NCBI GenBank assembly: GCA_017516745.1
Contig: JAFXBF010000001.1
Coordinates: forward strand, 62,001-126,000
Source: Clostridia bacterium
GTDB lineage: Bacteria > Bacillota > Clostridia > Oscillospirales > Acutalibacteraceae
Direction: 5' to 3'
Length of the DNA stretch: 64,000 bases
Below, piece after piece: positions 7,112 to 62,804 of this stretch. The position numbers and the translations under genes are program-made. Below the pieces are notes generated by a model, which ran no database searches, was not told the origin of the DNA, and saw only the letters and a list, made by a program, of their open reading frames with translations. Position 1 is the stretch's first letter. Each line of letters begins with the position of its first letter.

Positions 7112-7230
7112 ATTGGTGTAGCAAAAGACGATTAAAATGAAGTATCCATCATTAACGCAGTGACATCATTTGCCGTAAGGCAAACATCATTGAAAAAAGC
7201 ACTTGCGAGCGCAAGTGCTTTTTTCTGGCT
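7112..7230. repeat. mosaic palindromic repeat, copy 1 (short form)
   Basis: Left end ATTGGTGTAGCAAAAGACG.. then TTAAAATGAAGT, an internal run of short palindromes each followed by CATCATT (including TTTGCC-GTAA-GGCAAA at about 7170), and a right end made of the hairpin 7192-7225 plus TGGCT. The last 84 bases (7147-7230) are identical to 8899-8982. The left 30 bases match 8800-8831 with a few substitutions. It lacks the left-hand palindromes present in copies 2 and 3. It lies between convergent genes. Confidence 0.85.
7192..7225. terminator. bidirectional terminator hairpin within repeat copy 1
   Basis: A perfect 15-bp stem (AAAAAAGCACTTGCG) with a 2-base loop, giving a T-run on either strand. 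It can terminate the plus-strand DUF4838 gene and the minus-strand regulator pair, which converge here. Confidence 0.85.
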
Positions 7231-7348
7231 TTAATGTACCACTTTCATACAAAATTACCACCTTTTTGCCAAGGGGGACGTCGGGTAATAAAATTTATGA
7301 TTTATATATCAATCAACTGTTTTGAGTAATCAAGAGTTAATTACCAAA

Positions 7349-8239
7349 TCAATTTTTTAACTCAAGAGATAGTATCAAATCCATGATTTCATTCATATCT
7401 GATCTGCTGTTAAAATGAGCCTGATACGCAATTCCGTTTTCTCCTGTTGGGTAATATCCGATTCTGATATTATCTCCGTTAAATTCCGGTGTGTGAACAT
7501 AAAATGTTTTATCGCAATATTCATATTTCTTTCCTGTGGGCGTTACTTTTCCCGTTTTGTCCTGATCCCGCAGGTCAACCGAGCCACTTGTGAAGAGGTA
7601 TGTTACCGACAGACAGTTCGTTTCGCTTTCGTTGTTGTTTTCTTTAGGAATGACAAGAAGAACGTTATAACCGGTAAAATCGCTTCTATCGCAGGGTACA
7701 ATTGGGTGTCCGAAATACGCTTTTGCCGTATCATATCCAACAATGACATCTTTATATACGTTCTGTTCTCCTTCGTGGTTTACAATGGTCGTTGCCACAG
7801 TCGAAGAAGGTTCTGCGGAAGGCGCAAGGGGCTTTTCTGTAATTTTTGTTGTGGAAGGAACGTCTGTTTGTGGGGGCTGTGTGCTATGCTCCTGCCGGTT
7901 AGGGTTACCGGTCGTGTATGTTTGCGTATACTTCTCTGTTTCTGAAGTCGTTGTTTGATATGGCGTCTGTTCCGTTCTCGGCTGATCTGTTCCTGCAGCA
8001 TTATCCGAAACGGCAATGCCGGTTTGCGTGACAACAGGATTTTTTCCGAACCAGTTCTGTGAACTGATCCAGCCGGTTGTAATTATCAACGCAGCACAAG
8101 CACAAAGAGTTTCAACAATATTTAACTTGTGGTTTTTATGTTTGCGAAAACTAAGACTAACAGCGTCAGTATTATCTGCCGCCAAAATGTACTTTTCATC
8201 GAATCCGGAAATAGCATCATATATGGTATTAGTATTCAT
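7349..8239 (-). CDS. membrane-anchored partner (putative anti-sigma-like) of the XRE/sigma4 regulator
   Basis: 296 residues. The first ~40 residues are cytoplasmic and begin with ISGFDEKYILAAD, a pattern seen in clostridial proteins encoded behind sigma-like regulators. One transmembrane helix follows at about 43-61 (IVETLCACAALIITTGWI). Then a 90-residue extracellular linker rich in T, Q, P and S leads to a C-terminal globular domain (about 165-296). The start overlaps the regulator stop by 4 bases (ATGA), so the pair is coupled. The topology (short cytoplasmic head, one TM, external sensor) fits an anti-sigma or signal-transducing role, but this is inferred from context. No known sensor domain is recognised. 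Confidence 0.6.
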   Translation of the reverse strand: MNTNTIYDAISGFDEKYILAADNTDAVSLSFRKHKNHKLNIVETLCACAALIITTGWISSQNWFGKNPVVTQTGIAVSDNAAGTDQPRTEQTPYQTTTSETEKYTQTYTTGNPNRQEHSTQPPQTDVPSTTKITEKPLAPSAEPSSTVATTIVNHEGEQNVYKDVIVGYDTAKAYFGHPIVPCDRSDFTGYNVLLVIPKENNNESETNCLSVTYLFTSGSVDLRDQDKTGKVTPTGKKYEYCDKTFYVHTPEFNGDNIRIGYYPTGENGIAYQAHFNSRSDMNEIMDLILSLELKN

Positions 8240-8688
8240 AAACCTTCCTCCTTTAAGAACTTTCTCATCTTTTTGCGTACACGCATAAGAATAGTTCTTA
8301 CGTAATTCTCCTTAATTCCGTATTTTTCACCAATTTCTGACGGATCCTCAAGATGATAATACCTCCGAATAAAAACGCTCCTGTCACGTTCGTTGAGTGT
8401 TTCCATAAAAGCATTCAGATCGTGCTTTAAAACATCGGTTCCCGGGGAATAATTGGGCGGAAAAGCAGAAGACAGCTCTTCTGACAAAATTGAATCTCGA
8501 TCAATCAATTCATCCGGGGTAATATCAAGCAACTTTGCTATCGATTCAAGCATTTTTCGACTGGGACGACTTAATCCCGTTTCCCATTTGGAAACAAGCT
8601 CCCTTGAAACGAACAAAGCTTCTGCAAGTTGGGCTTGAGATAATCCTGCTTTTATTCGCAACTTTGTAATTATATGACCGGTCTGCAT
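8236..8688 (-). CDS. XRE helix-turn-helix fused to sigma-70 region 4
   Basis: 150 residues. Residues 1-60 are a Cro/C1-type HTH (LRIKAGLSQAQLAEAL, then VSRELVSKWETG, then DITPDELI). Residues 85-150 look like sigma-70 region 4 (METLNERDRSVFIRRYYHLE, then IGEKYGIKENYVRTILMRVRKKMRKFL). There is no sigma region 2, so it cannot melt a promoter alone like a normal ECF sigma factor. It probably binds DNA through both domains or contacts RNA polymerase as an accessory factor. GGAGG lies 8 bases before the ATG. A consensus-like promoter is just upstream, and the membrane partner follows with a 4-base overlap. Confidence 0.75.
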   Translation of the reverse strand: MQTGHIITKLRIKAGLSQAQLAEALFVSRELVSKWETGLSRPSRKMLESIAKLLDITPDELIDRDSILSEELSSAFPPNYSPGTDVLKHDLNAFMETLNERDRSVFIRRYYHLEDPSEIGEKYGIKENYVRTILMRVRKKMRKFLKEEGL

Positions 8689-8714
8689 AGATTCATCACC
8701 TCCGTTGCACCTTC

Positions 8715-8743
8715 ATTATATCCATTACCATAGGATTGCTCAA
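8715..8743 (-). promoter_or_regulatory. sigma-A promoter of the XRE/sigma4 operon
   Basis: Minus strand: TTGAGC (8738-8743), 17-base spacer, TATAAT (8715-8720), 27 bases before the ATG at 8688. Confidence 0.75.
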
Positions 8744-8799
8744 GGTAAAAAACATATCACATGGAGAACAGGTGGTAAAAATCGAGGGATGGGTCTATA

Positions 8800-8982
8800 A
8801 TTGATGTAGAAAAAGACAATTAAAATGAAGTTTCGCTATTTGCGAAATGATGTTTGCCGACATAATAATTAGCGAAGCGATATCATTCACGAAGTGAACA
8901 TCATTAACGCAGTGACATCATTTGCCGTAAGGCAAACATCATTGAAAAAAGCACTTGCGAGCGCAAGTGCTTTTTTCTGGCT
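8800..8982. repeat. mosaic palindromic repeat, copy 2 (long form, downstream of tRNA-Gln)
   Basis: Left end ATTGATGTAGAAAAAGACA.. TTAAAATGAAGT as in copy 1. Then come palindromes separated by a 7-base spacer: TTCGC-TATTT-GCGAA followed by ATGATGT, then TTCAC-GAA-GTGAA, an imperfect AACGCAGTGA unit and TTTGCC-GTAA-GGCAAA, each followed by CATCATT. It ends with the terminator hairpin 8944-8977. The spacer appears as ATGATGT on the left and as its reverse complement ACATCAT on the right, so the array flips orientation inside. 8899-8982 is identical to 7147-7230. Confidence 0.85.
8944..8977. terminator. terminator hairpin after tRNA-Gln
   Basis: Perfect 15-bp stem AAAAAAGCACTTGCG / CGCAAGTGCTTTTTT, directly adjoining the CCA end of the minus-strand tRNA-Gln gene. 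Same sequence as the hairpin at 7192-7225. Confidence 0.9.
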
Positions 8983-9052
8983 GGGATGGCTGGATTTGAA
9001 CCAGCGGATGCGGGAGTCAAAGTCCCGTGCCTTACCCCTTGGCTACACCCCA
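8978..9052 (-). tRNA. tRNA-Gln (anticodon TTG), CCA encoded
   Basis: Cloverleaf on the minus strand. Acceptor TGGGGTG (9046-9052) pairs with CATCCCA, with one G-T pair. The anticodon arm is CGGGA-CTTTGAC-TCCCG, giving anticodon TTG. The T-arm is GCTGG-TTCAAAT-CCAGC, the discriminator is G and CCA is at 8978-8980. Its 3' end abuts repeat copy 2, and its 5' side is separated from tRNA-His by repeat copy 3. I see no clear promoter of its own. Confidence 0.95.
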
Positions 9053-9061
9053 ATATTAATT

Positions 9062-9275
9062 TTTAATGAAGTATCGCTTTGGGCGATATGATATACGGCT
9101 AACGCCGAATGATATATTTCCACTTCGTGAAAATATGATATAATATCCGTCCCTTCATATGCCGCAGGCATATATCATCGCACGAAAGGCGATATCATAT
9201 CGAAGATATATCATCCGTTCCGACAGGAAGGGATATCATTGAAAAAAGCACTTGCGGTTCGCAAGTGCTTTTTTC
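9062..9275. repeat. mosaic palindromic repeat, copy 3 (between tRNA-His and tRNA-Gln)
   Basis: Left end TTTTAATGAAGT. Palindromic units follow: ATCGC-TTTGG-GCGAT, CGGC-TAAC-GCCG and CAC-TTC-GTG, each with spacer ATGATAT. Next come ATATGCC-GCA-GGCATAT, ATCGC-ACGAAAG-GCGAT, ATATC-GAA-GATAT and TTCC-GACA-GGAA with the spacer reversed (ATATCAT). The end is the AAAAAAGCACTTGCG hairpin (9241-9275). It shares both ends with copies 1 and 2 but carries different internal palindromes. Confidence 0.85.
9241..9275. terminator. terminator hairpin after tRNA-His, right end of repeat copy 3
   Basis: Stem AAAAAAGCACTTGCG with 5-base GTT-centred loop, 2 bases past the CCA end of tRNA-His on the minus strand. 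It would cut the tRNA transcript between His and Gln unless read through. Confidence 0.85.
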
Positions 9276-9277
9276 AG

Positions 9278-9355
9278 TGGGGTGGACAATGGGAGTCGAA
9301 CCCACGACCTCCAGGGCCACAACCTGGCACTCTAACCAACTGAGCTATGTCCACC
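9278..9355 (-). tRNA. tRNA-His (anticodon GTG), CCA encoded
   Basis: Minus strand: acceptor GTGGACA pairs with TGTCCAC. The anticodon arm is CCAGG-TTGTGGC-CCTGG, giving GTG. The discriminator is C73, as expected for His, CCA is at 9278-9280, and the genome-encoded G-1 is at 9355. Confidence 0.96.
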
Positions 9356-61572: not shown

Positions 61573-62804
61573 GTTTGTTTTCAAAGATTAAGAGCAAGGG
61601 CAGTAACTATTCTGTTAAGCAGATTGATTTGTCTGTCTGCCCCGAAAATACACCCGAGGAGCTTAAATATTTATATGAGCAGAGTGTTGTCGATTACGGT
61701 GAGGGCTACCTCGGCCATCCCGATTCGGTACTGCTCAAAAACGGCGATATTCTCACCTTCTTCCCCAAGGGTCACGGCAAGGGAGCGGCACTTTCACGCC
61801 GCAGTAAGGACGGTGGTGTGACCTACGTCAACGGCGTTGAAAATCCGCCGAAATCCTGGGAGGGCTCCCGTGAAACTCCCACGGTTTACCGCCTTGAATT
61901 CAAAGACCCGAGCACACCCGATAAGCTCATACTTATCTGCGGCAACCCCAAGTGGGGCACGGAGCCTACAACAGGCGGCTTCAACTGCTCTCTTTCCTGC
62001 GATGAAGGCGAAACCTGGAGCGAGTTTAAGCTCTTTTACAAGGGTATGAACACAATCGTTGCAATGGCATCTCTCACAAGGCTCAAGGAAAACGGAGAGT
62101 TTGTAGATAAGTGGATGGCTCTTTTCCACGACAGAAAGTTCCGCAACTATAAAACTATACTCACCTTCGACAAAAACGGTGAAATGCAGTGGAGCAAGCC
62201 CGAGAAGTATTTTGCAAAATATCGCAAGACGGAAAAGGGCAGCAATATGTGCGAGGTTGAGTGTGTCCGCTCCGATATGGGTAAGGGCGATGAGATATGT
62301 ATCCTCACCAGAAGCAACACCAAAAAGGTAAATTCCTTCATCAGCTTTTCAAAGGATGAGGGCAAAACCTGGTCGGAGCCCGTTGAGCTTCCTGCCGCAC
62401 TTAACGGCGAAAGGCACAAGGCGGACTATCTGCCCGACGGCAGGCTGATTATAACCTTCCGTTCAATTGAGCGCTGTCCCGAAAAGAACAAGGTGTATAT
62501 CGAAAAGGGTCACAAAGGCCGTGGCTGGTACAGCGAGGGCTGGATAGCCTGGGTCGGCACTTACGATGACCTTAAAAACGGCAGGGAAGGGCAGTACAGA
62601 ATTAAACTTGCCCACACCTATCTCAACTATCAGACCGAGCCCGAGCTGGTTGCAAACGGCGATTGCGGCTATTGCGGCAACGTTGTATTGCCCGACGGCA
62701 CTTTTGTCACATCAACCTACGGCATTTTCTCTGCCGATGAAAAACGCCATACATATATCGTTTCAAAGCGTATACGTCTTGCGGATACAGACAAGTTACT
62801 TTAA
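61569..62804 (+). CDS. sialidase-superfamily protein with Asp-box repeats
   Basis: 411 residues without a signal peptide. Asp-box-like turns are visible at SRRSKDGGVTY near 80, SCDEGETWSEF near 145 and SFSKDEGKTWSEP near 260, consistent with a six-bladed propeller of the BNR/sialidase class. GHPDSVLLKNGDILTFFPKG near 47 is the usual N-terminal blade. Whether it is a true sialidase or another exo-glycosidase or lyase-like propeller cannot be decided. It is coupled to metH by an ATGA overlap, an unusual place for a glycan enzyme. Confidence 0.78.
   Translation: MSLFSKIKSKGSNYSVKQIDLSVCPENTPEELKYLYEQSVVDYGEGYLGHPDSVLLKNGDILTFFPKGHGKGAALSRRSKDGGVTYVNGVENPPKSWEGSRETPTVYRLEFKDPSTPDKLILICGNPKWGTEPTTGGFNCSLSCDEGETWSEFKLFYKGMNTIVAMASLTRLKENGEFVDKWMALFHDRKFRNYKTILTFDKNGEMQWSKPEKYFAKYRKTEKGSNMCEVECVRSDMGKGDEICILTRSNTKKVNSFISFSKDEGKTWSEPVELPAALNGERHKADYLPDGRLIITFRSIERCPEKNKVYIEKGHKGRGWYSEGWIAWVGTYDDLKNGREGQYRIKLAHTYLNYQTEPELVANGDCGYCGNVVLPDGTFVTSTYGIFSADEKRHTYIVSKRIRLADTDKLL

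Follow-up and report, generated by a model that had tools for sequence, protein, structure and literature searches.

Three hairpin-rich repeats lie between 7112 and 9277 of a 64,000-nucleotide stretch (the window; positions 62,001 to 126,000 of contig JAFXBF010000001.1) from the Clostridia bacterium assembly GCA_017516745.1. What kind of element are they, and why do they stand beside tRNA genes? A sequence-only reading had described them as a mosaic element with constant ends, exchangeable palindromes and a spacer that changes orientation. We propose, with a probability of roughly two in three, that each repeat is the 5′ module of a small, non-autonomous integrative cassette with a tRNA or tmRNA 3′ end as its docking site. 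The proposal draws on the structure and position of the repeats, two pairs of filled and empty sites, matched ends, covariation and tails adjoining recombinase genes, all of which are directly observed. Positions refer to the window throughout; G000 is its own genome, and L- and G-numbers denote the loci and genomes compared.

Read on the tRNA strand, a cassette would begin with a terminator that replaces the tRNA's own, followed by the hairpin array, frequently a promoter, frequently also one or two genes, and finally a tail of ~55-70 bp ending in NCA. Its place would be after the tRNA CCA and before the native terminator, with CA or CCA as the junction common to both ends, and newer units would push older ones outward. 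Mobility may be supplied in trans by the integrases of larger elements that share the attachment ends, probably a clade of serine recombinases for tails of one type (T2) and a tyrosine integrase for those of another (T1).

The repeats in the window

All three copies are present with their common ends. The left ends, AATGAAGT, occupy 7136-7143 (copy 1), 8824-8831 (copy 2) and 9065-9072 (copy 3), and the right ends, ATCATT plus the GAAAAAAGCACTTGCG hairpin, occupy 7186-7225, 8938-8977 and 9235-9275, respectively. The spacer flips from ATGATRT to AYATCAT as the sequence-only reading claimed, and copy 1 does lack its left part. On the minus strand each copy starts with a perfect hairpin and terminal T-run, from which a chain of short hairpins continues. 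ARAGORN places four tRNA genes on this strand: Gln (8978-9052), His (9278-9354), Arg and Gly. Because the hairpin follows tRNA-Gln immediately in copy 2 and tRNA-His after 2 bases in copy 3, the "right end" is a tRNA terminator. The hairpin earlier taken as the end of the element is found in every copy, but in copies 2 and 3 it terminates the minus-strand tRNA genes, and its stem differs elsewhere. Copy 3 is far more stable than its shuffled counterparts, with a folding z-score of -6.8 as RNA and of -8.4 and -8.2 for the two strands as DNA; none of 200 shuffles folded as well in any of the three calculations.

Distribution and position of the arrays

The ends recur beyond the window, with the right-end 21-mer ATCATTGAAAAAAGCACTTGC found at four exact sites in the genome, three of which are the window copies. 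The 18-base core of the copy 3 family, ATGATATAATATCCGTTC, occurs at six sites in the same genome with 0-1 mismatch (copy 3 itself has one mismatch), and arrays of other spacer subfamilies are present as well. Other genomes contain the exact core in at least 115 stretches, 80 of which were retrieved for study; goat, water buffalo, deer, horse, sheep, cattle and yak appear among the record titles that name a host source. Local tandem duplication, a possible origin of the three copies, is rejected because of this dispersal in the own genome and in others.

Position was surveyed for 89 family-A arrays from the 80 loci, six G000 loci and one G002 locus. Directly behind a complete tRNA gene (ARAGORN) lie 48 of them. 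Another 32 have a located start that does not directly follow an ARAGORN tRNA, and the start was not located in the remaining nine. Inspected by eye, the 32 comprise 13 arrays behind tRNA or tmRNA 3′ ends, seven behind tails, two of which (L102 and L110) follow a tail of a further type, and 12 in other settings (protein-gene terminators, tandem arrays and contig ends). In L062 a full tmRNA, confirmed with Rfam, precedes the array. Most arrays keep a fixed orientation relative to the tRNA or tmRNA 3′ end. Twenty other tRNA stretches of the own genome show no array of this type by eye.

Filled and empty sites

Precise insertion relative to an empty site, as expected of a non-autonomous integrative element, is seen at tRNA-Leu and tRNA-Pro. 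In the filled locus L048, the tRNA-Leu CCA is followed by the terminator, the array, a helix-turn-helix (HTH) gene and a tail ending ..TTTCGCA, beyond which the sequence continues as TAAAAAGACAGATACC. In the empty loci L219 and L222 the same tRNA-Leu CCA runs directly into TAAAATGACAGATACC or TAAAAGGATAGATACC. These two were among the matches to the flank past the L048 tail, which was found in five of 60 genomes and, apart from G016 itself, as short pieces only. At tRNA-Pro, the filled site of the own genome (L017) carries the terminator, the array and a tail ending ..CATAGCCA, and then TAACAAGGGCTGGTTGATTATCAGCC, whereas in G002 (L187) the same CCA is followed by AAACAAAGGCTGGTTGATTATCAGCC. 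The ends have only CA or CCA in common at the junction. The picture is less clear-cut at tRNA-His and tRNA-Thr. The interval between tRNA-His and tRNA-Gln, in which copy 3 forms an array without genes, contains no array in G001 and G003 and an array of another subfamily in G002.

Architecture of the proposed cassettes

In 62 of 74 arrays, the first open reading frame (ORF) beyond the array is on the tRNA strand and points away from the array. The T1 tail was recognized first in seven loci and then modeled with nhmmer (E ≤ 1), giving 21 matches, seven of them the training tails, that are spread over 20 of the 80 loci and invariably share the strand of the array. An ORF ends between -4 and +55 bp from the tail start in 14 of the 16 arrays with a downstream T1 tail, the exceptions being L102 and L104. 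One of the 14, L099, has a T2 tail between array and gene, so that its gene belongs to the next unit. Of the T1-pattern matches from a wider search, 31 in 30 loci were inspected, including four tails already known, and 29 of the 31 are followed by a terminator-like hairpin within 55 nt. Tandem units are present in L073, L074, L092 and L095; in L073 a 12-bp piece of a tRNA 3′ end stands ahead of the second unit.

From the 81 ORFs collected, 20 proteins other than S23 were scanned, 14 of them from tailed units and six from units with no recognized tail. Thirteen match a family at E ≤ 0.01 (L087 and L099 below the curated cut-off) and seven match none; the families include HTH, methyltransferase, His phosphatase, NUDIX, DMP19, HNH, GNAT and shikimate kinase.

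By motif search, and with two false matches removed by eye, 15 of the 80 loci have an S23 gene (23S_rRNA_IVP, PF05635) behind the array. Pfam confirms two of these genes (84.1 and 88.0 bits against a cut-off of 33.8), the remaining S23 calls being made by motif or look. Six array-bearing genomes, chosen for their arrays, contain 16 S23 genes in five of the genomes. Of the 14 that could be oriented, 11 have an ARAGORN tRNA upstream, two a tRNA or tmRNA 3′ end recognized by eye, and one (L301) an array after an unrecognized end. Across the class, 40 mid-scoring S23 genes were picked by hand; for the 37 with enough flank, a tRNA or tmRNA is upstream in 15 and downstream in none. The 30 best-scoring genes (29 usable) give four upstream and three downstream, and S23 was therefore rejected as a universal cassette marker. 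Only a subgroup of S23 is linked to cassettes.

Many arrays also appear to provide part of a promoter. The last spacer (ATTGAA/ATTGAC) contributes a -35 TTGA in 40 of 77 non-T2 arrays, a count in which at least the T2 loci L051 and L086 remained. A -10 box lies 14-20 nt further on in 29 of the 77 array ends, compared with 5.6% in shuffled flanks. Both boxes at a distance of 15-19 nt are found in 25 of the 77, and in none of seven T2 arrays.

Matched ends and neighboring recombinases

The two ends of a unit correspond to each other. Terminator A (TTTTGTC) is paired with a T1 tail in 13 cases and terminator B (GACAAGTTTC) with a T2 tail in eight; no crossed pairs occur, and five are unclassed. 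Fisher's test gives 5e-6, or 8e-5 without the training loci, for genomes that are not independent. T2 tails stand directly behind the array, with no genes between, at eight sites. A non-autonomous integrative element would have two matched ends and no recombinase inside, and this is what is found: the 20 cargo proteins scanned include no member of a recombinase family.

Recombinase genes do adjoin such tails. The six highest-identity matches to a large serine recombinase (LSR), namely L249 (the query itself), L250, L251, L253, L257 and L258, have a T2-like tail, recognized by eye, within ~150 bp past the LSR stop codon; none is seen by eye after the other four (L252 and L254-L256). Pfam confirms the Resolvase and Recombinase domains (PF00239, PF07508) in L251 and L257. 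In L253 the order is LSR end, T2, terminator and array. A two-base overlap fits serine recombinases. For T1, L259 shows a 390-residue tyrosine integrase (PF00589), the T1 tail, a terminator, an array and a gene that looks S23-like.

Origin in a phage or plasmid was considered and rejected. The exact 18-base core has no match in IMG/VR, and blastn of copy 3 (E ≤ 1e-5) finds none among plasmid and phage records. The T1 end motif has three viral matches, each inside or spanning reading frames and none with the arms of the tail.

Other recombinase genes were seen in passing. L287 contains three tandem serine-recombinase genes (Pfam), of which the middle one has the Recombinase domain only and the last ends beside a T2-like tail. 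L286 looks like L287 in this respect, with Pfam support for its last gene. A 403-residue tyrosine integrase lies just upstream of the array in L103. This array is chimeric, as is that of L117; in both, a family-A core is fused to a long array with AATGAAG spacers.

Array structure and Gut-1 RNA

The arrays are 120-176 bp long and consist of a string of hairpins separated by a spacer of ~7 bases that switches orientation halfway. Alignment A1 comprises 56 of the 66 arrays for which both ends were found, 10 having been omitted for length or look. A long-range stem of 14 bp, in which AATGATATCCGTTCC pairs with GGAACGGATATTATATCATT, is almost invariant in it and would enclose hairpins with freely exchanged stems, while three further hairpins lie outside. 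The long-range stem is neither supported nor tested by covariation because it does not vary. Overall, 94.4% of cells in A1 pair, and 193 cells are changed on both sides compared with 55 ± 10 in 500 shuffles, none of which reaches 193; the structure was derived from the same alignment, with helix 4 entered one column off. Sliding the partners leaves at most 66 cells changed on both sides. A strand bias that might tell RNA from DNA is 193 GU versus 40 AC in cells but 27 versus 20 when counted by column pairs.

Part of the array corresponds to a known motif. Gut-1 RNA (Rfam RF01706) reaches at least its gathering score (50 bits) in 16 of 20 relative loci, with L031, L034, L107 and L112 below it. 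The match covers the first ~77 nt of the array on the tRNA strand, right after the terminator, and comprises three hairpins with UGAAAU-like spacers. In three of the 20 loci (L062, L095 and L098) Gut-1 exceeds the threshold on both strands of one array. Since the halves match on opposite strands, the array can be described as two Gut-1 units face to face. The window copies score below 50 bits, with 44.5 at 9167-9241 (-) and 33.7 at 9048-9120 (+) in copy 3, and a weak match of 30.1 at 8875-8944 in copy 2.

For the function of the array we favor a role at the DNA level. It is unlikely to be the site of a recombinase, since T1 and T2 tails are found with one and the same array. Least certain of our proposals is that it acts as a DNA-level dyad, either an insulator or a platform for protein binding. 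It might insulate the cassette and donate the promoter, or it might bind S23, which is a homopentamer in Xanthomonas (PMC4990558).

Weighing the alternatives

Several observations count against the cassette interpretation. The evidence is static sequence, with no excision, circle or transfer seen, and all 80 loci are titled as metagenome-assembled genomes (MAGs) of Clostridia or Bacillota. By eye, nothing recognizable as a tRNA, a tRNA fragment or a tail precedes 12 of the 89 arrays. At tRNA-Thr, where G002 has no array, its terminator stem is identical to that of G000, which suggests a native terminator at this site; the old terminator of tRNA-His is gone, not displaced; and the "empty" tRNA-Pro site of G002 holds a different tRNA-fragment duplication further on. 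The loci in which terminators were compared with tails also served to define the terminator classes, by eye. A T1 tail stands behind an integrase gene in one locus only (L259), and the T2-linked LSRs come from four of 120 family genomes (eight have any LSR match), none of them G000. The reach of T1 is narrow, with 50 listed pattern matches in 33 of 299 genomes, all of one family. Upstream of the 31 T1-pattern matches, where some loci are truncated, a rule-recognized array is seen for nine and a tRNA for 14; L262 looks like a chance match and L268 is doubtful. Finally, the candidate tail in the window, at 7226..7290, fits neither tail model.

The units could instead be leftovers of integrative conjugative elements or prophages that lost their interior by deletion, kept both attachment ends and can be mobilized in cis but do not propagate themselves. 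The coincidence of the tails with the ends of recombinase-bearing elements would suit such remnants, as would decayed copies such as window copy 1 and the tRNA-Leu locus of the own genome (L001/L031), where an S23 remnant is seen by eye behind the array. Dehalococcoides ssrA islands that have no integration module are discussed in these terms (PMC3146451). Random deletion, however, is not expected to produce so uniform an architecture, in which the ORF end keeps its narrow distance from the T1 tail in 14 of 16 arrays, nor T2 units at eight sites that lack genes and agree in terminator class, and we consider this origin unlikely. We see less chance still that the array is a non-mobile structured RNA, with Gut-1 serving tRNA operons as a small RNA or 3′ trailer. 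RF01706 does score above its gathering threshold in 16 of 20 loci, and Weinberg et al. (2010, PMC2864571) rate Gut-1 as certainly RNA. The array is nevertheless absent from the same tRNA in relatives, it starts past the terminator, and the high Gut-1 scores on both strands of L062, L095 and L098 would be needless for a single-stranded RNA.

The sequence-only reading had likened the repeats to bacterial interspersed mosaic elements (BIMEs). On this view they would be repeats of the repetitive extragenic palindrome (REP) type, spread by a Y1/RAYT transposase. Its description of dispersed, modular, intergenic copies built of palindromes stands. The likeness to BIMEs is not supported, given that arrays keep to one position and orientation behind tRNA 3′ ends, and given the cassette genes and the attachment-like tails with serine and tyrosine recombinase genes beside them; no search for Y1/RAYT genes was made in the window or the genome. 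BIME and REP sequences are not known to have cargo or a fixed docking gene, a description that the arrays do not answer to, and we regard this explanation as barely credible. Integrative cassettes at tRNA and tmRNA 3′ ends remain our preferred interpretation.

Relation to known systems

Integron gene cassettes resemble the present units in carrying one or two small accessory genes each, in tandem arrangement and in placing the newest unit beside the anchor. The units described here differ in their tRNA anchor, 5′ structured array, and own promoter and terminator; the recombinases seen at the tails are LSRs (PF00239, PF07508) and phage-type integrases (PF00589). More tentatively, and with a chance that we put below even, they may constitute a second, integron-like system of gene capture. 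In such a system, tRNA and tmRNA 3′ ends would be universal docking platforms for tandem modular cassettes composed of a terminator, a Gut-1 dyad, a promoter, S23 with an accessory gene, and an attachment tail. The ends would be swapped between serine and tyrosine recombinases, and the S23 pentamer would bind the array. If true, this would account for the orphan Gut-1 RNA as well as for the presence of S23 genes in stable-RNA loci.

Gut-1 as an orphan RNA is already known, as are, in kind, cis-mobilizable elements (CIMEs) and tandem ssrA islands. In 2010 Gut-1 was listed as certainly RNA, confined to the human gut, not cis-regulatory and an orphan (Weinberg et al. 2010, PMC2864571). Here the motif makes up one half of an inverted array, itself part of cassettes docked at tRNAs, and it occurs in Clostridia MAGs that include animal sources. 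The CIMEs and integrative mobilizable elements represented by the Dehalococcoides ssrA islands (McMurdie et al. 2011, PMC3146451) are alike in their tandem insertion at a tRNA-like 3′ end, their serine recombinase and the occurrence of islands without an integration module. Those islands have a 20-bp repeat at the junction, whereas the cassettes share CA or CCA only, use many different tRNAs as well as tmRNA, form units of ~0.25-1.8 kb, and contain a terminator and hairpin array. The intervening sequences of 23S rRNA with an S23 ORF (Warrier et al. 2016, PMC4990558) likewise place an S23 gene, together with inverted repeats, inside a stable-RNA locus; the cassettes lie behind tRNAs and have a promoter and second genes. 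A palindrome reported behind the tRNAs of Methanopyrus is unrelated (PMC5217627). A full-text search of the open literature found no description of such cassettes.

These findings supply a genomic context for Gut-1 RNA and for a subgroup of S23. They also suggest that small accessory genes (methyltransferases, NUDIX, HTH and phosphatase) could be traveling among gut Clostridia via tRNA 3′ ends, a path that has been overlooked. The candidate recombinases and the exact junctions are named, so the proposal can be tested directly.

The proposed cassette in the window

Copies 2 and 1 enclose one cassette, running from 8977 to 7226 on the minus strand. It is assigned by architecture only, because the candidate tail agrees with neither model. 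All of the following features are on the minus strand. The docking site is tRNA-Gln (ARAGORN; Rfam), whose CCA is abutted by the copy 2 terminator hairpin at 8944..8977, an inverted repeat of the GCACTTGC type that forms the 5′ end of the cassette. The copy 2 array (8824..8943; inverted repeat) belongs to the ATGATGT subfamily and is closed by a 13-bp stem, AATGATGTTTGCC / GGCAAACATCATT. Two ORFs follow, gene 1 (8236..8688; 150 residues, HTH_3 and Sigma70 region 4 by Pfam) and gene 2 (7349..8239; 296 residues, no Pfam family at E ≤ 0.001). The candidate tail ends in AGCCA and is placed from position only. Beyond it lies the copy 1 terminator hairpin (7192..7225), a direct repeat of that of copy 2 at a distance of 1752 bp (terminator to terminator), which we take as the start of an older, displaced cassette. 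The copy 1 array (7136..7191) is internally deleted.

The docking site of copy 3 is tRNA-His (ARAGORN), from whose CCA the terminator hairpin at 9241..9275 is separated by 2 bases. The copy 3 array (9065..9240) is placed in the ATGATAT family by alignment and by a match to its core, ATGATATAATATCCGT.

Related elements

Other arrangements behind tRNA genes were noted, the first two of them by eye. L176 (G000:C26:148600-149700), L185, L187, L193, L194 and L047 contain a different tRNA-side element, composed of a copy of the tRNA 3′ end, its own terminator and a hairpin like ACAGTCCGGTGGACTGT, sometimes in tandem. S23 genes behind tRNA or tmRNA in L292, L294, L303, L305, L307 and L339 (G000:C9, behind tmRNA) carry a single long, imperfect palindrome (e.g., TTACCTCTTCACTATTCACT .. 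AGTGAATAGTGAAGAGGTAA) where the array would otherwise stand. Gene-less hairpin arrays stand in tandem behind tRNA-Leu in L053 (92-637). Lastly, between G000:C11 (L019/L034) and G002 (L189), from two species of the genus, tRNA-Thr is by eye inverted relative to the same neighboring lipoprotein-like gene.

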